Shown here: positions 32,449 to 40,968 of the stretch, in pieces
Layout of the letters: the number at the start of each line of letters is the position of its first letter
Numbering within the stretch: position 1 is the first letter of the stretch
NCBI GenBank assembly: GCA_027061995.1
Contig: JAMOUT010000087.1
Location: 25,652-89,651, forward strand
Source of the DNA: Candidatus Aminicenantota bacterium
GTDB taxonomy: Bacteria; Acidobacteriota; Aminicenantia; JAMOAD01
Length of the DNA stretch: 64,000 nt
Direction of reading: 5' to 3'
Notes under the pieces: model-generated
What the model was told of the DNA's origin: nothing
What the model saw: only the letters and a program-made list of their open reading frames with translations
Databases searched by the model: none
Program-made: the position numbers and the translations under genes

Positions 32449-34464
32449 ATGATAAATAATATTGATATTTCAAAGGCTATGCAAATCAGATTGGATGATG
32501 AATTGCCGGAAATGCCGGAGTTTAAAGAGGGAATAAGAAGGGCTCCCAAAAGAGATTTTAATTTATCTGAAAAGGAAACAGAGATTGCTCTGAAAAATGC
32601 TCTGAGATATATCCCCCCGCAACATCATGAAAAAATGGCAGTTGAATTTATGAATGAACTTAAAACAAGAGGTAGAATTTACGGATACAGATTCAGACCA
32701 AAGGGGAGAATATATGGTAAACCCATTGATGAATATAAAGGAAAATCAATAGAAGGTAAAGCTTTTCAGGTTATGATAGATAATAATCTTGATTTTGAAG
32801 TTGCTCTTTACCCTTATGAACTTGTAACCTATGGTGAAACAGGTCAGGTTTGCCAAAATTGGATGCAATACAGATTAATAAAAAAATATCTTGAAAATCT
32901 TACAAGAGATCATACTCTCGTTTTACATTCGGGACATCCTCTCGGACTTTTCAAATCAAATGAAAATGCTCCGCGAGTAATAATAACCAATGCCCTTATG
33001 GTGGGGATGTTCGATAATCAGGAAAACTGGCATAAAGCCATGGCACTCGGTGTTGCAAACTACGGACAGATGACCGCAGGCGGTTGGATGTATATAGGAC
33101 CTCAGGGGATTGTCCACGGAACATATACGACCATCTTGAATGCGGGAAGACTAAGACTCGGTATTAAAGATGATTTACGGGGAAAACTGTTCGTAAGCTC
33201 GGGTCTCGGAGGGATGAGCGGAGCTCAGGCAAAATCGGTGGAGATTGCAAAAGGGGTGGGAATCATCGCTGAAGTTGATTATTCAAGGATAGAAACAAGG
33301 ATAAATCAAGGATGGGTGGGAGAACTTGCAAAAACACCGGAAGAGGCTTTTGAAAGAGCGAAAAAATTCATAAAAGAGAAAACTCCTCGCTCAATTGCTT
33401 TTCACGGAAATATAGTTGATCTTCTCGAATATGCGGTTAAACATAATGAACATATAGATCTTTTATCGGATCAAACATCCTGCCACGCACCTTATGACGG
33501 CGGATACTGCCCTCAGGGATTAACTTTCGAGCAAAGAACGGAAATGCTTGCCAAAGATAAAGATAAATTCAGAGAACTTGTTGATAAATCACTGAGAAAA
33601 CATTATAACCTGATAAAAGAACTAACCGAAAGGGGAACATACTTTTTTGATTATGGTAACTCTTTTATGAAAGCTGTTTATGATGCGGGTGTTAAAGAGA
33701 TATCAAAAAACGGAATTGATGAAAAAGACGGTTTTATATTCCCATCTTATGTTGAAGATATTATGGGGCCCATTATGTTTGATTATGGCTATGGTCCTTT
33801 CAGATGGGTTTGCCTCAGCGGTAAAGAGGAAGATTTGATAAAAACAGACCAAGCGGCGGCAGATTGCATTAATCCCGAAAGAAGATATCAGGATAAAGAT
33901 AATTATATATGGGTAAAAGATGCCATGAAAAACAAACTCGTCGTAGGGACTCAGGCAAGAATACTTTATCAGGATGCCGAAGGGAGAAGGGATATAGCTC
34001 TTAAATTCAATAAAATGGTCAGAGGCGGAGAAGTTGGTCCAATTATGATAGGAAGAGATCATCATGATACGGGTGGAACTGATTCACCTTTCAGAGAAAC
34101 AGCTAATATTAAAGATGGCTCAAACATTATGGCTGATATGGCTTCCCATTGTTTTGCGGGAAATGCCGCGCGAGGGATGAGTTTAATAGCTCTTCATAAT
34201 GGAGGGGGAGTCGGTATAGGGAAAGCCATAAACAGTGGTTTTGGTCTTGTTCTTGATGGCTCGGAGAGAGTTGATAATATAATCAGATCCGCTATGATGT
34301 GGGATGTTATGGGTGGAGTTGCAAGAAGAGCATGGGCAAGAAACGAGAATGCAATATCAACCTCAATAGAACATAATAAAAAATATTCTGATACTGATCA
34401 TATAACAATCCCGTTTGTAGCGGAGGATGAACTTGTGAAAAAAGTGGTAAAAAACAATTTATAA
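32449..34464 (+). CDS. hutU: Urocanate hydratase
   Basis: TYGETGQVCQNWMQYRLIKKYL, GGWMYIGPQGIVHGTYTTILNA, GLGGMSGAQAKS, DQTSCHAPYDGGYCP, GGGVGIGKAINSGFGLVLDG; ~670-aa form. Confidence 0.94.
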   Translation: MINNIDISKAMQIRLDDELPEMPEFKEGIRRAPKRDFNLSEKETEIALKNALRYIPPQHHEKMAVEFMNELKTRGRIYGYRFRPKGRIYGKPIDEYKGKSIEGKAFQVMIDNNLDFEVALYPYELVTYGETGQVCQNWMQYRLIKKYLENLTRDHTLVLHSGHPLGLFKSNENAPRVIITNALMVGMFDNQENWHKAMALGVANYGQMTAGGWMYIGPQGIVHGTYTTILNAGRLRLGIKDDLRGKLFVSSGLGGMSGAQAKSVEIAKGVGIIAEVDYSRIETRINQGWVGELAKTPEEAFERAKKFIKEKTPRSIAFHGNIVDLLEYAVKHNEHIDLLSDQTSCHAPYDGGYCPQGLTFEQRTEMLAKDKDKFRELVDKSLRKHYNLIKELTERGTYFFDYGNSFMKAVYDAGVKEISKNGIDEKDGFIFPSYVEDIMGPIMFDYGYGPFRWVCLSGKEEDLIKTDQAAADCINPERRYQDKDNYIWVKDAMKNKLVVGTQARILYQDAEGRRDIALKFNKMVRGGEVGPIMIGRDHHDTGGTDSPFRETANIKDGSNIMADMASHCFAGNAARGMSLIALHNGGGVGIGKAINSGFGLVLDGSERVDNIIRSAMMWDVMGGVARRAWARNENAISTSIEHNKKYSDTDHITIPFVAEDELVKKVVKNNL

Positions 34465-34470
34465 TAAAAA

Positions 34471-34502
34471 AAGGGGCAAACTTTTATCAAAGTTTGCCCC
34501 TT
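34471..34502. terminator. Bidirectional hairpin between convergent hutU and the Hdr/Qmo-like operon
   Basis: AAGGGGCAAACTTT-TATC-AAAGTTTGCCCCTT, 14-bp perfect stem. Confidence 0.85.
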
Positions 34503-34519
34503 AATCATAAAACTATCAA

Positions 34520-35611
34520 TTATTCTTTATTTTTCAATTCCGCAAGCCAAAGTGCCACAGGTCTATACATAAGATGTGAGAATTTTGTAAAAGGGAGAGT
34601 AATTATCAATTCGAACACTATTATGAGATGAAGTGCAAAACTAACATAATACCCTTTAAAAAACAAACTCCATCTGCATATATCAAGCGCATAACCCGAA
34701 AGAATAGCCAAAAAGATTAGTATGATAAAAATCCAATCCGTGTGATGTGAGTATTTGGAATAATTATCTTTTTGTTTCCCCCTTTTATAGAGGAAATATA
34801 CAGAACCGTATATAGCGGGTAATCCTGAAACAATTCCTATTATCTTCGGGATTATTTTAAGAGTGCTTTGAGTTGAGATAAACAGATCAATCATCATAAC
34901 GGTTATCGTTGCTATAAACAAACCTATAAAACCCCAAACAAGCGATAGATGGGCTATATATCTGCTTTTATCTTCACACTCCGAAAATTTCTTCTGAGCA
35001 AGAACCTCTTTGAACAATACATCAAAAAATCCTTTTACCGATTCGGAAAATTTAAAACTCTTTTTCTTAAACCCGTTAACACTTTTCATCATTACATATA
35101 TTTGAAAAAAAGCTAACAGTATAAGGAAAATAAAAGCGATTATCCCGCCGTCATGAAGAGTATCAAGGCTAATCATAGACAAAGGATTGATTTTCTCCAT
35201 ATCGGGATAATTACCGAAGATATAAATTCCCCCTATTGCAAGAAGTGTAAGAATTATCCATGCAAAAACGGAAGAGAACCCATTATAAAAAATATCGGCA
35301 ACCTTCCCGAGTGAAAACTTTCTTATCTGATATCTTCTGAGAGCCATCATTAAACCACCGGGGTCAGCATCTCTCGGACAAGTATCCGAACACTCTCCGC
35401 AATAATAGCAAAGCCACGGGTCCATAGAGGAATTAATCTTATCTTCCAATCCGAGAATGGTCGCTCTTATCATCTTTCGGGGAAAAGAGTTATCTTCCGT
35501 AGAAAGGGGGCAAATTGCCGTGCAATTTCCGCAATTATAGCAAGCATTTATATCAAAAGCACCGTATTGTTTTATCTTTTCCGAAAATTCCGAATTTATC
35601 TTGTGCATCAT
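34520..35611 (-). CDS. QmoC-like subunit: HdrC-type 2x[4Fe-4S] domain fused to NarI-like cytochrome b membrane domain
   Basis: CYNCGNCTAICPL and CYYCGECSDTCPR motifs followed by several TM helices. Confidence 0.85.
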   Translation of the reverse strand: MMHKINSEFSEKIKQYGAFDINACYNCGNCTAICPLSTEDNSFPRKMIRATILGLEDKINSSMDPWLCYYCGECSDTCPRDADPGGLMMALRRYQIRKFSLGKVADIFYNGFSSVFAWIILTLLAIGGIYIFGNYPDMEKINPLSMISLDTLHDGGIIAFIFLILLAFFQIYVMMKSVNGFKKKSFKFSESVKGFFDVLFKEVLAQKKFSECEDKSRYIAHLSLVWGFIGLFIATITVMMIDLFISTQSTLKIIPKIIGIVSGLPAIYGSVYFLYKRGKQKDNYSKYSHHTDWIFIILIFLAILSGYALDICRWSLFFKGYYVSFALHLIIVFELIITLPFTKFSHLMYRPVALWLAELKNKE

Positions 35612-35892
35612 TTCCTCCCCTTTAATTCATAAAAATAATAATCATCATCGGAAACTTCTCCTGTTTCCTCTATATATCCGTATTTTCTACATGTCATAAC
35701 ATTATAGGTAACATCGGATAGAGGCAGATTCATAATCTCGGCTATCTGTGGGATTGTCTTAGGACCTGTTGACAATGCTTTTGCAATAGATTTTCTGATT
35801 TTCATAAATTTTCTTGTTTCCTCAACTTTTTTTTCGGAAACTTTCATCTTGTTTTTTATATATTTAAGGGTTTTTTCCTGATCCCAACTCAT
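35608..35892 (-). CDS. Winged-helix-type small protein
   Basis: SIAKALSTGPKTIPQIAEIMNLPLSDVTYNVMTCRKYGYIEETG helix-turn-helix/wing layout; 4-nt overlaps on both sides. Confidence 0.65.
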   Translation of the reverse strand: MSWDQEKTLKYIKNKMKVSEKKVEETRKFMKIRKSIAKALSTGPKTIPQIAEIMNLPLSDVTYNVMTCRKYGYIEETGEVSDDDYYFYELKGRK

Positions 35893-37832
35893 CCGTTCAC
35901 CTCCTCCATTATTCCGTCTATCATCCCCATTATCTCTTTATTGGTATAACCTTTAAGTTCTATGGCTCGCTGTTCGCAAACAGGGATACATGAGCCGCAT
36001 CCTTTACATAATGCCTCGTTTACATAGGCAATAGTCTTTCCTTCCGCCTCTTTTTTTTCTATTGCATCATATATGCAAACTTCATCACATTTTCCGCACC
36101 ACTCGCAAGCATTTTTATTTACAATAGCAACAATAGGTTCAAGCTGCAGAGTTCCACCGGAAAGAAGTGAATATGTTTTTGCGGAAGATGATAAAGATGA
36201 GAGAATTGATTCGGTCAAATTCTTAGGCCCCTGACTTGTTCCGGCTATAAAAACTCCGTCAATAACAGTTTCAACAGGTCTTAATTTAGGATGAATCTCA
36301 TTAAAGAATCTATCCCTTCCTATCGGGACTTTGAAAATCTTTTCAAGTCTTTCATTATTTCTCGGAACCATTCCCGTTACAAGAACAATAAGATCAGGAT
36401 TAATCTCTATCTCCTCCCCTTCGGTTAACAAGTCTTTAATTCTGACAATAGTGTTTTCACCCTCTGTTATAACTTCGGGAGGTTGATTTTCATCGAATTT
36501 CAGATATATATCCCCGTTTTTACATGAGTCTCTGTATAAAAGTTCCTGTTTCCCGTAAGTTCTTATATCTCTGAAAAGATGATATGTTTTTATATCCTTG
36601 TATTTTTCCTTAAGTAAAAGGGAGGTATGAATTGCAGCCGTGCAACAAAATCTCGAACAATATTTATTATCTCCCCCTTTTTGTCTGCTACCGACACAAT
36701 AGATAAAACCTATGTTTTTAATCTCTTTATTATTAAAAACAAGCTTCCCGTTACTCAATTCCATCAATCTTCTAAACTGCTGTAAACTAAGGACAGTATC
36801 ACTGTTTTTATAACCGTATTCACCCTCCTTAGGTTCATAAGGGGAAAAACCGGTGGTTAAAATCACAGCTCCTATCTTAAGATTGAGTTTTTCCACCTTT
36901 TGGTTAAAATCAAAAACCTCGGGACAAGTTTGTTCACATATACCGCATTTTGTGCAATTATCAATATCAATGGCAGGCTGTTCGGGAAAAGCTTTTTTAT
37001 AATTTTTATAGATAGCTTTTCTTTTTGTTAAACCAAAGTTAAATTCATCGGGAACTTCAACAGGACACTGTTTGATAATCTCCTCAAATTTTTCACACCC
37101 CTTATCGGTTTTAATGAATCTGGGATGAATTTTGATTCCAAGATCAAAATTTCCAACGCACCCTGAAAATGATTCAACTTCAGCTCCTGTCCATATTTTA
37201 ATATTATTTCTTTTTATTATCTCTTTATAAAGTCTTTCAACAAGCTCTTCCCCTCTCTCTCCGCTTTCAAAAAGAGCTCCCCACTGAGAGATTCTACCTC
37301 CGAGAAAATGCTCTTTCTCTATAAGATAAACATTAAGTCCCGTATCAGCAAGTTCTATGGCGGCTCTCATTCCGGCAGCACCTCCGCCGATAACCGCAAC
37401 TCCGTTTGTAACGGATATCTCATTAGGAGTCAGAGGTTTTGCCTGAGCGGCTCTTCTAATTCCCGATCTGACAAGCCTAATCGCTTTCTCAGTGGCTTCT
37501 TCCGGTTTATCCGAATGCGCCCATGAATCCTGCTCCCTAATATTAACCTGAATATATTCATAAGGGTTTATCCCCGCTCTTTCGGCAACACTTCTGAAAG
37601 TATGAAGATGAAGTTTGGGAGAGCATGAAGCAACAACCATTCCGTCAAGTTTGTTTTCAAGAATATCCTGAACCATCTCTTTTTGACTTGAATCAGAACA
37701 AGCAAAAACAGTTGTTTTTGCCAAAACAACACCTTCCTCATTTTCAACCGAGTGCATAACCTTTTTAACATCAACATAATCGGAGATATTGCCACCGCAA
37801 TGACAAATATATACACCTATTCTTTTCTTCAT
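35889..37832 (-). CDS. HdrA/QmoB-like iron-sulfur flavoprotein
   Basis: VYICHCGGNISDYVD, VAVIGGGAAGMRAAIELADTGLNVYLIEKE, CTKCGICEQTCPE, two C-terminal CxxCxxCxxxC motifs (CEWCGKCDEVC, CKGCGSCIPVC). Confidence 0.88.
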   Translation of the reverse strand: MKKRIGVYICHCGGNISDYVDVKKVMHSVENEEGVVLAKTTVFACSDSSQKEMVQDILENKLDGMVVASCSPKLHLHTFRSVAERAGINPYEYIQVNIREQDSWAHSDKPEEATEKAIRLVRSGIRRAAQAKPLTPNEISVTNGVAVIGGGAAGMRAAIELADTGLNVYLIEKEHFLGGRISQWGALFESGERGEELVERLYKEIIKRNNIKIWTGAEVESFSGCVGNFDLGIKIHPRFIKTDKGCEKFEEIIKQCPVEVPDEFNFGLTKRKAIYKNYKKAFPEQPAIDIDNCTKCGICEQTCPEVFDFNQKVEKLNLKIGAVILTTGFSPYEPKEGEYGYKNSDTVLSLQQFRRLMELSNGKLVFNNKEIKNIGFIYCVGSRQKGGDNKYCSRFCCTAAIHTSLLLKEKYKDIKTYHLFRDIRTYGKQELLYRDSCKNGDIYLKFDENQPPEVITEGENTIVRIKDLLTEGEEIEINPDLIVLVTGMVPRNNERLEKIFKVPIGRDRFFNEIHPKLRPVETVIDGVFIAGTSQGPKNLTESILSSLSSSAKTYSLLSGGTLQLEPIVAIVNKNACEWCGKCDEVCIYDAIEKKEAEGKTIAYVNEALCKGCGSCIPVCEQRAIELKGYTNKEIMGMIDGIMEEVNG

Positions 37833-39139
37833 TTCAGACTCCTTATATATGCCGCAACTTCAGCGGATGCCGCTCCGGCTGATAATATTGAATCGGGGAT
37901 ATCCTTTGGTCCGGTTGCTGTTCCCGCGGCAAAAATCCCTTTTAAATTTGTTTTAGCCGGATTGATCAATGGATCCGTCTGTTTAACATAAAAATATTCA
38001 TCAAGCTCAAGTTCTTCGGTTTTAAACGATGAAGTTATCTGTGGGTTCGATAACATCCCCACGGATAAAACAACAAGATCATGCTCCATCTCCTTTACAC
38101 CGCCGGAGCCCTCTATATCCTCATACCTGACTTTAAGATTCCCGCTCTCTTTGATCTCCTCAATCTTAGCAACTTTACCTTTGATAAATTGAACTCCCAT
38201 ATCCTTCGCCTGTTGATAAAATTCTTCAAAACCTTTTCCGAATGCTCTTATATCAATATAATAAATTGTAATATCCGCAAGAGGTAAGGCTCCCATTAAA
38301 AGCTGAGCCTGCTTTATCGAATACATGCAACATATTTGAGAGCATATAGGGTTTCCTACTGAAACATCTCTTGAACCAGTGCAAAGAATGTATGCGATAT
38401 TTTCCGGAATTTTACCGTCAAGCGGCCTGATTACAGCATTATAAGGCCTTGTAGGAGAAAGAAGTCTGTCCATCTCCATTGCATCCATAACATTGGGATA
38501 CATCCCGAATCCGTATTGCGGTTTTTTTCTCGCAGGAAAAAGATTGAACCCGGTCGCAAGAACCACGGATTTTACTTTCAAAGTATAATACTCAGGCTCC
38601 TGTGTGAAATCTATCGCATTTGCGGGGCACACTCTTTCACAAGCTCCGCAAAGGATACAATTATCAATATCAATTACCGCTGTTTTGGGTATCGCGGTGC
38701 TATAGGGGATATAGACAGCTCTTCTTCCGACAAGTCCGAAATTGAATTGATCCTCCACATTTACGGGACAATTCGCTTCACACTCCTGACAACCCGTGCA
38801 AAGGTCCTCCCTAACAAATTTGGGTTTCTTAAGAATCTTAACCTTGAATTTTTTATCTATCCGTTCAATACTCGAAACTTCACTATAACTTAAAACTTCT
38901 ATATTCTCATGACGCATTGTTTCCGACATCTTAGGTGTCGCGATACAACTTGCGCAATCAAGGGTGGGAAAAACCTTACTAAGGAGAATCATTTTACCAC
39001 CTATGGAAGGTTCTTTTTCTATGAGAATAACTTTAAAACCCATATTCGCAAGATTAAGCGAAGTTTCCTGTCCTGCAATACCACCACCGACAACCATTAC
39101 ATCATATTCAAGATGAAACATCTTTCCCTCCGGATTCAT
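37829..39139 (-). CDS. HdrA/QmoA-like iron-sulfur flavoprotein
   Basis: VMVVGGGIAGQETSLNLANMGFKVILIEKEPSIGGKM, DCASCIATPKM, CTGCQECEANCPV, CILCGACERVCPA. Confidence 0.88.
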   Translation of the reverse strand: MNPEGKMFHLEYDVMVVGGGIAGQETSLNLANMGFKVILIEKEPSIGGKMILLSKVFPTLDCASCIATPKMSETMRHENIEVLSYSEVSSIERIDKKFKVKILKKPKFVREDLCTGCQECEANCPVNVEDQFNFGLVGRRAVYIPYSTAIPKTAVIDIDNCILCGACERVCPANAIDFTQEPEYYTLKVKSVVLATGFNLFPARKKPQYGFGMYPNVMDAMEMDRLLSPTRPYNAVIRPLDGKIPENIAYILCTGSRDVSVGNPICSQICCMYSIKQAQLLMGALPLADITIYYIDIRAFGKGFEEFYQQAKDMGVQFIKGKVAKIEEIKESGNLKVRYEDIEGSGGVKEMEHDLVVLSVGMLSNPQITSSFKTEELELDEYFYVKQTDPLINPAKTNLKGIFAAGTATGPKDIPDSILSAGAASAEVAAYIRSLK

Positions 39140-39554
39140 TTTTTATACTACCCATTTTTATCAAAGCTTCAGAAAATTTTTTCATATGATTTACAAAAGG
39201 TTCCGCACAAACAGAACATATTGCAGCCATTTTAATTCTCGCGGGATTAATCCCGATATCCTGTGCCTTTGTTTGAGCTTCCTGAACTATTTTTGCCGTT
39301 AATTCGGAACAATCATCCCGATAAGGACAATCTGTTCCATCCGCAGCAATAAATACACCGTCAAACCCTTTTTTAAATGCATATATAATCCAATCGGGAT
39401 TTATACCGCTTGAACAAGGGAGACTAACAGTATAAGCGGAAGGGGGATAGTGCATCTTTAAAAGACCCGCAAGATCTATCCCCGGATCCGAAATACTGTT
39501 AGTTGAAAAAACAAGGATTTTAGGGGAAAATTCCCCTTCCCTTTTTTCCGTCAT
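39108..39554 (-). CDS. MvhD/FlpD-like hydrogenase iron-sulfur subunit
   Basis: ILVFSTNSISDPGIDLAG, LPCSSGINPDWIIYAFKKGFDGVFIAADGTDCPYRDDC, ICSVCAEPFVNHM. Confidence 0.8.
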   Translation of the reverse strand: MTEKREGEFSPKILVFSTNSISDPGIDLAGLLKMHYPPSAYTVSLPCSSGINPDWIIYAFKKGFDGVFIAADGTDCPYRDDCSELTAKIVQEAQTKAQDIGINPARIKMAAICSVCAEPFVNHMKKFSEALIKMGSIKNESGGKDVSS

Positions 39555-39808
39555 TTCATTTTTTTCATAAAGATTCGCCAGTATCCGGCTTCTTCAACAA
39601 TACCGAGAAACTCATGTCCCATCTTGTTTGCCCATTTCGGGATATCTTTTGTTGTTCCTTCATCCGATGACATAATCTCCATGATACCACCAACCGAAAC
39701 TTCGGCAAGAGCTCTCTTAGCCGCCAAAAGAGGTCCCGGGCAAGCAGTTCCTCTTGCATCAATTACTTTGTCCGCCTTTAAATTTTTTAATTCTTCTTGA
39801 TTTAACAT
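39551..39808 (-). CDS. tusA: TusA family sulfurtransferase
   Basis: VIDARGTACPGPLLAAKRALAEVSVGGIMEI (CPxP motif). Confidence 0.93.
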   Translation of the reverse strand: MLNQEELKNLKADKVIDARGTACPGPLLAAKRALAEVSVGGIMEIMSSDEGTTKDIPKWANKMGHEFLGIVEEAGYWRIFMKKMK

Positions 39809-39864
39809 ATTATTCCTCCTGTTTTAATTATTAAAATTTCCAATATAAACAATACGACTAATGA

Positions 39865-40281
39865 TTAGATGAAAAGATTTACATCAGCTTCTTCAGCTGC
39901 TGAAATATACTCACCTATGCCTACGATATCATCGGCTATATCAACAAAATCTTCGAGCTTTTCTCCACCCCAGATCTTTCCTGCTAATCCGCAAATATGA
40001 ATTTTAACATTCGTTAGTTCTTTAGCCTGTCTGAAAAATTCAATCCATTTGGGAACTTTAAGTCTTTCGAGTGATGCGAAAAATTCATCCTTTTTGTCAT
40101 TCAATTCAGCAAGATGTTTGTTTGTATCAACATTCTCTTTTTTAAAAGCATAAGCACCCATTAAAAGAACATAGATATTAACCTCCATATCCTGAGCTGC
40201 GGCTCCGCTTAATACAACTCCAGCTGCCGTTAGTTTGTCAACGCTTCCCGTGAAAATAGCCATACACATTTTTTTTGCCAT
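39865..40281 (-). CDS. DsrE/DsrF-like protein
   Basis: MCMAIFTGSVDKLTAAGVVLSGAAAQDMEVNIYVLLMGAYAF, VKIHICGLAGKIWG conserved Cys; SD AGGAGG. Confidence 0.8.
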   Translation of the reverse strand: MAKKMCMAIFTGSVDKLTAAGVVLSGAAAQDMEVNIYVLLMGAYAFKKENVDTNKHLAELNDKKDEFFASLERLKVPKWIEFFRQAKELTNVKIHICGLAGKIWGGEKLEDFVDIADDIVGIGEYISAAEEADVNLFI

Positions 40282-40295
40282 AATATTCCTCCTAT

Positions 40296-40634
40296 TTATT
40301 TAATTTTATTAAAATTCAAAAGATTATTCCGTTTTAGCGTTATCAATTTAACTATTTCTTTCATGTTTTTTATCACATCAAGAAGTTCATAATGCTCCAA
40401 ATAATAGTAGATATAATTTCCCTCTTTTTTTCTTCCGAGTATCCCGATTTTATAAAGGGAGTTCAAATTATTTGATAAATTACTCATTGAAACCCCTATC
40501 TTTTCCTGTATTTCAGATACATTGAGCCTATCTTTCTGAATAGCTTCGATTATCCTTAATTTCAGAGGAGTATTAATACTCCTACATACCAAACTATAAT
40601 ACTCAAAAAATTTTTCCTCATTCTCATTCATCAT
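40296..40634 (-). CDS. ArsR/SmtB-family transcriptional regulator
   Basis: NTPLKLRIIEAIQKDRLNVSEIQEKIGVSMSNLSNNLNSLYKIGILGRKKEGNYIYYYL winged HTH. Confidence 0.85.
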   Translation of the reverse strand: MMNENEEKFFEYYSLVCRSINTPLKLRIIEAIQKDRLNVSEIQEKIGVSMSNLSNNLNSLYKIGILGRKKEGNYIYYYLEHYELLDVIKNMKEIVKLITLKRNNLLNFNKIK

Positions 40635-40639
40635 ACAAT

Positions 40640-40668
40640 AATATAATTCAAAAAATTCAAAATGTCAA
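40640..40668 (-). promoter_or_regulatory. Consensus promoter of the Hdr/Qmo-like operon (predicted leaderless)
   Basis: TTGACA(40668-40663)-N17-TATATT(40645-40640), 5 nt before ATG at 40634; spacer includes tandem TTTTGAATT TTTTGAATT. Confidence 0.65.
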
Positions 40669-40895: not shown

Positions 40896-40968
40896 GGGCG
40901 GTTGGCTCAGCTGGGAGAGCGTGGCGTTCGCAACGCCAAGGTCAGGGGTTCAAATCCCCTACCGTCCA
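40896..40968 (+). tRNA. tRNA-Ala, anticodon CGC
   Basis: Full cloverleaf: GGGCGGT/ACCGTCC acceptor with G3:U70, D arm GCTC/GAGC, anticodon stem TGGCG/CGCCA with loop TTCGCAA, T arm AGGGG TTCAAAT CCCCT, discriminator A; CCA not encoded. Confidence 0.95.

Follow-up and report, generated by a model that had tools for sequence, protein, structure and literature searches.

A conserved gene cassette of sulfur carriers and Qmo-like subunits in Aminicenantes fits the traits of type II Qmo and may serve protein-bound sulfane sulfur

What does an operon do that sets sulfur carrier proteins beside two HdrA-type flavoproteins and a QmoC-like membrane subunit? The question is raised by eight open reading frames (ORFs) on the minus strand at 34520-40634 of the window, by which we mean the whole 64,000-nucleotide stretch of DNA that was analysed. 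Their order is ArsR-DsrE-TusA-MvhD-QmoA-QmoB-wHTH-QmoC, where wHTH denotes a winged helix-turn-helix protein. The host is a metagenome-assembled genome (MAG) of Aminicenantes (Acidobacteriota), 2.36 Mb in size and 95% complete, in which the operon lies on contig C87. An initial annotation, made from the sequence alone, had read the locus as a hybrid of Qmo and sHdr. We found that seven of the eight genes form a conserved cassette that fits the traits of the already named type II Qmo, and we propose that the operon is, on balance, probably a quinone-linked oxidoreductase for sulfane sulfur bound to TusA and DsrE, most likely reductive in this organism.

With QmoC as query, full-length relatives were found in many genomes of the same class, and their neighbourhoods keep the order DsrE-TusA-MvhD-QmoA-QmoB-wHTH-QmoC across families, within a distribution that is patchy for the class. 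In named genomes, 80 loci were found across bacteria and archaea, and contig ends truncate many of those that do not show the full core; TusA-MvhD-QmoA-QmoB-wHTH-QmoC stands as an uninterrupted core in 40 of the 80, with DsrE in the locus for 33 of these 40. The bacterial sources of the 40 are Aminicenantes/Acidobacteriota, Chloroflexota, Bacteroidota, Chlorobiota, Elusimicrobiota, Planctomycetota, UBP1 and a MAG titled Chrysiogenales, and the archaeal sources are Thermoproteota, Nitrososphaerota, Njordarchaeota and Thermoplasmatota. Since the gene order recurs across two domains, the arrangement is not due to chance, and the seven genes from DsrE to QmoC constitute a conserved cassette. The linkage to DsrE and TusA, on which the initial annotation hinged, is kept in relatives. 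Viral contigs, searched with QmoC, yielded no relative. Several variants occur: DsrE lies downstream of QmoC in some loci, QmoA is ~900 aa long in several lineages and contains an inserted GltD-like NAD(P)H module (Fer4_20 + Pyr_redox_2), and one Anaerolineae locus (L058) has a separate GltD-like protein downstream of the cassette. In Chloroflexota and Bacteroidota the cassette adjoins YedE, TusA/DsrE or rhodanese genes, and in a Desulfurococcales MAG a Tat molybdo-oxidoreductase. A UbiA protein resembling heme o synthase (CtaB) directly follows qmoC in Anaerolineae and some Aminicenantes (L058:7010-8014, L057:11062-11724, L059:5331-6218, L038:12237-13124), and many genomes of the class that carry the cassette, the host among them (L199:7705-8376), encode a related strong UbiA subfamily; a link between this gene and the heme of the QmoC cytochrome b is possible.

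The flavoproteins and the membrane subunit depart from canonical Qmo. We compared QmoA and QmoB with canonical proteins from type I loci, several of which have aprBA upstream: QmoA scored 398-402 bits to methanogen HdrA (5odc/9sfi) versus 219-244 bits to canonical QmoA, and QmoB scored 455 bits to HdrA 5odc versus 121-188 bits to canonical QmoB. The QmoB of the window is without the cysteines of the central CxxC and of the first ferredoxin cluster of HdrA, which QmoA retains. QmoC has an invariant His in its membrane domain and reached 231 bits to the NCBIfam qmoC equivalog, below the cut-off of 300, and is therefore QmoC-like rather than canonical QmoC. In a tree of 104 QmoC sequences, type I forms a single clade with 100/100 support and the QmoC of the window falls on the other side, where QmoCs from clusters with NiFe hydrogenase branch from within the cassette group. 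Tree and scores thus bear out that the subunits are non-canonical. The same traits, a QmoA and QmoB nearer to HdrA than to canonical QmoAB and a QmoC outside the type I clade, are shared with type II Qmo, which Neukirchen et al. (2023; PMC10504309) describe as present with or without Dsr/Apr, with a function said to need experiments; the examples given there are Vulcanisaeta moutnovskia, a sulfate reducer, and Ammonifex degensii. By these traits, the cassette fits type II Qmo. In Vulcanisaeta sp. JCM 14467 (L113) we found the cassette minus a detected MvhD, with a QmoA 62% identical to that of the window; the published Vulcanisaeta and Ammonifex type II sequences lay outside this comparison. 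The hybrid of Qmo and sHdr is not supported, as the operon holds none of the tested sHdr-specific parts (no CCG/HdrB protein, another gene order) and instead corresponds to what has been named type II Qmo. The account of type II Qmo differs from our cassette in that the sections accessible to us make no mention of a linkage to TusA, DsrE, MvhD and wHTH (PMC10504309). No description of this linkage was found in the literature searched, which did not cover subscription journals or supplements, so its novelty is provisional; on that footing, what is new is a defined set of sulfur-carrier partners for type II Qmo.

These partners are conserved in their functional residues. TusA has the PF01206 domain and the CPxP cysteine, and its Cys23 is invariant in 47/47 cassette members; DsrE likewise has the DsrE_2 domain and a conserved active-site cysteine, Cys97, invariant in 52/52. 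Its nearest solved relative is 2qs7, which has been called DsrE2B (PMC4175335). Two features of hydrogenase-linked MvhD, an N-terminal CxxC and the opening Cys of GCHPGDC, are missing from the cassette MvhD, which carries a C-terminal CxxC (ICSVC, C113/C116) in 48 of 50 members; neither hydrogenase-linked MvhD nor the MvhD domain in canonical QmoB has this motif. This new CxxC may possibly be a docking or dithiol site. In about 70 of the 80 loci a wHTH gene separates qmoB from qmoC; its AlphaFold2 model (pLDDT 88) has an ArsR/SmtB/MarR-like winged-helix fold, and Foldseek returned generic winged-helix repressors only (E ~2e-3), matches that do not tell a regulator from a subunit, so the protein could be either a local regulator or a structural part of the complex. 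The conserved wHTH, the MvhD with relocated cysteines and the relatives' QmoA proteins with a fused NAD(P)H module are all additions to the initial annotation.

ArsR stands apart from these seven genes. We considered it as a fixed part of the system and dropped it: the closest relatives have short leader ORFs and no arsR ahead of DsrE, which places ArsR outside the conserved cassette, even if several other lineages do have ArsR genes in or close to theirs. Sulfane-sulfur ArsR repressors (sHdrR/SoxR) have two conserved cysteines, and many shdr-linked ArsR proteins are without the pair (PMC12423496); the ArsR of the window has a single Cys, so the two-cysteine switch of sHdrR/SoxR is unusable here. 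It scored 42 bits against the NCBIfam TsoR family (cut-off 115). Its paralogue in the same genome (55% identity, 87% positives) heads an operon for a PhsA-like enzyme and YeeE proteins, described below; a search for an operator motif common to the two ArsR-headed operons gave promoter-like similarity only (AATACTTGAC), with no clear palindrome. Ahead of Bacteroidota cassettes (L094, L095, L108, L109, L111, L117, L121, L130, L132), a regulator that we assigned by eye to the Crp/FNR type takes the place of ArsR.

No protein with a NIR_SIR domain, and hence no DsrAB, was found in the genome, and no AprA above cut-off in it or in any of 60 genomes of the same class; the AprA matches in the host genome (30 bits, against a cut-off of 642) were discounted, since control genomes gave weak matches of the same kind. 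HdrB was not found in the genome either: its sole CCG protein was rejected as HdrB, being GlcF/GlpC-like, fused to a ferredoxin and remote from the operon. The initial annotation had seen no HdrB, DsrAB or AprAB in the window, and this extends to the whole genome. Of the set for sulfate reduction, dsrAB and aprA are thus missing along with hdrB, as had been expected, and sat is not: a full-length Sat is encoded elsewhere (L202:10-1224, contig C95). It stands alone, in a genome without AprAB, DsrAB or another sulfite reductase with a NIR_SIR domain. On contig C13, a one-strand operon (L209:249-6429) encodes an ArsR-TorD fusion, a PhsA-like protein, an FeS protein, a fusion of cytochrome b561 with a half YeeE, a second half YeeE and a rhodanese. 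The PhsA-like protein is a Tat molybdoenzyme with 489 bits to PhsA (cut-off 694), and a genome of the same family has the same PhsA-like/YeeE arrangement with ArsR (L210:1689-7845). This thiosulfate-reductase-like operon, headed by the paralogous ArsR, was not part of the initial annotation. For the fusion of cytochrome b561 with half a YeeE, we found no description in the literature consulted. The genome further encodes a DsrC/TusE protein, which has a single C-terminal Cys and whose gene precedes a DsrE2-like one, as well as MenA- and MenG-like proteins.

The conserved bond of TusA, DsrE and an unusual MvhD, in genomes without enzymes for sulfate or sulfite, leads us to propose protein-bound sulfane sulfur as the substrate. 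Sulfane sulfur, probably from thiosulfate or polysulfide entering through the YeeE half-transporters, would be loaded onto TusA and DsrE; TusA-type proteins are described as accepting sulfur from YeeE-imported thiosulfate (PMC11582611). A soluble head of MvhD, QmoA and QmoB would exchange electrons with the protein-bound persulfide, and QmoC, by way of two [4Fe-4S] clusters and cytochrome b, would connect this head with the quinone pool of the membrane. The direction here would most likely be reductive, from persulfide to thiol and H2S, with the complex working in the cytoplasm as the counterpart of the PhsA-like enzyme in the periplasm. Where relatives have a QmoA with a fused NAD(P)H module, flavin-based electron bifurcation would probably couple NAD(P)H, quinone and persulfide. 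Complex formation, the persulfide as substrate and the direction are all points that we infer. Several results count against this quinone-linked, reductive oxidoreductase. The operon encodes no known site for cleaving disulfides or persulfides of the HdrB type. Electron transfer from menaquinol to persulfide is uphill unless proton-motive force or bifurcation drives it, which leaves room for the oxidative direction. MqnA and MenD, of the known pathways for the quinone head group, were not found in the genome; with MenA- and MenG-like proteins present, the quinone is uncertain. Among the 60 genomes of the class, YeeE co-occurrence with the cassette (10/24 vs 8/36, p=0.15) is not significant, and we do not use it as support. 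Finally, Vulcanisaeta and a Conexivisphaerales MAG combine the cassette with AprBA and no canonical QmoAB was seen beside their aprBA, so type II Qmo may serve Apr there. We also entertain, tentatively and as an unlikely though not remote reading, a broader version: a respiratory complex in its own right, of ancient origin and shared by bacteria and archaea, linked to quinone (in fused forms also to NAD(P)H) and flavin-bifurcating, which would reduce or oxidise TusA/DsrE-persulfide without HdrB, DsrAB or AprAB, with the CxxC of MvhD as the sulfur-receiving dithiol and wHTH as a built-in subunit.

The main rival to the reductive oxidoreductase, a possibility of some weight if short of probable, reverses its direction: TusA/DsrE-bound sulfide or persulfide would donate electrons to quinone, and in fused variants also to NAD(P)+, in sulfide oxidation or sulfur disproportionation. 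Electron flow from persulfide or sulfide to quinone is downhill. The YedE-TusA-DsrE genes beside some cassettes resemble the YTD cluster, the molybdoenzyme, TorD and YeeE of the host genome resemble MOLY and YTD markers, and the lone Sat also speaks for oxidation; what tells against it is that we saw no way of turning sulfane sulfur into sulfite (rDsr, the HdrB of sHdr and AprAB are all missing). Electrons might also serve no respiration at all. As a ferredoxin/NAD(P)H:quinone oxidoreductase, the complex would then act in thiol/redox homeostasis or biosynthetic sulfur supply, with TusA and DsrE working in tRNA thiolation, molybdenum cofactor synthesis or sulfide detoxification. For TusA of E. 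coli, literature cited by PMC4175335 describes such roles, and the single C-terminal Cys of the genome's DsrC/TusE is of the TusE type; yet the cassette is patchy within one class, unlike a housekeeping supply, it has YeeE, rhodanese and molybdoenzyme neighbours, and its operon shares a regulator family with the PhsA-like operon, all of which make this role improbable.

Membership in canonical Qmo or in sHdr fails on the tested features. That the operon delivers electrons to adenosine 5'-phosphosulfate (APS) reductase in sulfate respiration is very improbable, despite the QmoC-like subunit, the Sat in the genome and the type II Qmo of the sulfate reducer V. moutnovskia (PMC10504309). Searching 24 other cassette carriers for AprA, we found it above cut-off in three, with split or partial genes in two more (Vulcanisaeta and one Bacteroidota MAG). 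In the two Bacteroidota carriers with full AprA that were checked, however, aprBA is accompanied by a type I QmoABC, and one Acidobacteriota genome holds both Qmo systems (L171, L188). Together with the separate type I clade of the QmoC tree and the missing AprA and DsrAB, this refutes the APS reductase role for the host genome, unless the unassembled portion of roughly 5% contains aprAB. Directly before aprB, a small cytochrome-b-like membrane protein with a weak QmoC match was seen in Conexivisphaerales (L221:10042-10797) and Vulcanisaeta (L222:7241-7681), a candidate AprM-like protein. The aprA of Vulcanisaeta sp. JCM 14467 (L222:8185-10088) is split into two adjacent ORFs (338- and 307-aa frames) by a frameshift or an assembly error. 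An sHdr-type system is just as remote a prospect: TusA and DsrE are partners there too and an ArsR gene is near, as in sHdr loci, but the operon has no HdrB/CCG protein, the genome's only CCG protein is the distant GlcF/GlpC-like one, the ArsR is without the Cys pair, and the gene order is unlike hdrC1B1A-hyp-hdrC2B2.

The eight genes, their strand and overlaps, the promoter and the terminator were all re-found where the initial annotation had placed them (Table 1). ArsR and DsrE are spaced by +14 nt and DsrE and TusA by +56 nt, followed by overlaps at TusA/MvhD (-4), MvhD/QmoA (-32), QmoA/QmoB (-4), QmoB/wHTH (-4) and wHTH/QmoC (-4); the figure of -32 assumes that QmoA starts at its first ATG, and the overlap is shorter in some relatives (14 nt in L033). 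The -10 box ends at 40640, six bases from the ATG of ArsR, so that the predicted transcript is nearly leaderless. The hairpin lies between the convergent qmoC and a urocanate hydratase-like gene, named by eye (window 32449-34464, plus strand), and may therefore serve both as a probable common terminator. The plus strand carries a tRNA gene a short way upstream of the operon (window 40896-40968; Rfam RF00005, 65.6 bits).

Table 1. Features of the operon and its predicted signals, in window coordinates.
Feature	Position	Strand	Remarks
Sigma-70-like promoter TTGACA-17-TATATT	40640..40668	-	11/12 matches, before arsR
ArsR/SmtB-type regulator, 112 aa	40296..40634	-	ArsR-type HTH, one Cys
DsrE-like sulfurtransferase, 138 aa	39865..40281	-	PF13686 (DsrE_2), 41 bits
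TusA sulfur carrier, 85 aa	39551..39808	-	PF01206, 84 bits, CPGP motif
Free-standing MvhD/FlpD, 148 aa	39108..39554	-	FlpD/MvhD family, 98 bits; altered cysteine set
QmoA-like HdrA-type flavoprotein, 436 aa	37829..39139	-	FAD domain with inserted ferredoxin
QmoB-like HdrA-type flavoprotein, 647 aa	35889..37832	-	no fused MvhD
Winged-helix protein (wHTH), 94 aa	35608..35892	-	no Pfam family at cut-off
QmoC-like subunit, 363 aa	34520..35611	-	HdrC-type two-cluster ferredoxin domain + cytochrome-b-like membrane domain
Intrinsic terminator-like hairpin	34471..34502	-	14-bp stem, 6 G-C pairs, T run

The proposal gives type II Qmo a concrete, testable substrate in protein-bound sulfane sulfur. If true, it would point to an unrecognised respiration or detoxification of sulfur intermediates in uncultured anaerobes (Aminicenantes, Anaerolineae, Bacteroidales, Krumholzibacteria and several archaeal phyla), which marker surveys by dsrAB, aprAB and sHdr would overlook, and it would caution against taking qmoC-like genes as proof of sulfate reduction.

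Set against the known systems, the cassette shares features with several of them. Like sHdr, it combines an HdrA-type protein with TusA/DsrE carriers and has ArsR regulators nearby; unlike sHdr (hdrC1B1A-hyp-hdrC2B2 with LbpA, TusA and DsrE), it has a membrane QmoC, no HdrB and another gene order, and no LbpA gene was seen in the immediate neighbourhood, the only place where it was sought. With the YTD cluster of sulfur disproportionators it has in common the YedE, TusA and DsrE genes, which adjoin the cassette in some Chloroflexota; in its published form the YTD cluster contains no Hdr/Qmo genes, and it has been tied to disproportionation (PMC12998232). Hydrogenase-linked Qmo clusters (L112, L124, L126, L128) encode related QmoA, QmoB, QmoC and MvhD proteins and differ in having normal MvhD cysteines, hydrogenase subunits downstream and no TusA, DsrE or wHTH; our operon has no gene for a NiFe hydrogenase (MvhGA), for which the genome was not searched. 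Those four loci, and by arrangement also L052, L182, L186 and L189, join QmoC to NiFe hydrogenase MvhG/MvhA and form a candidate H2:quinone Hdr/Qmo system. With type I QmoABC, finally, the cassette shares two HdrA-type flavoproteins and an HdrC-cytochrome b subunit. Type I differs by an MvhD fused to QmoB, an adjacent aprBA and the lack of TusA, DsrE and wHTH genes, and its QmoC proteins form a separate clade.

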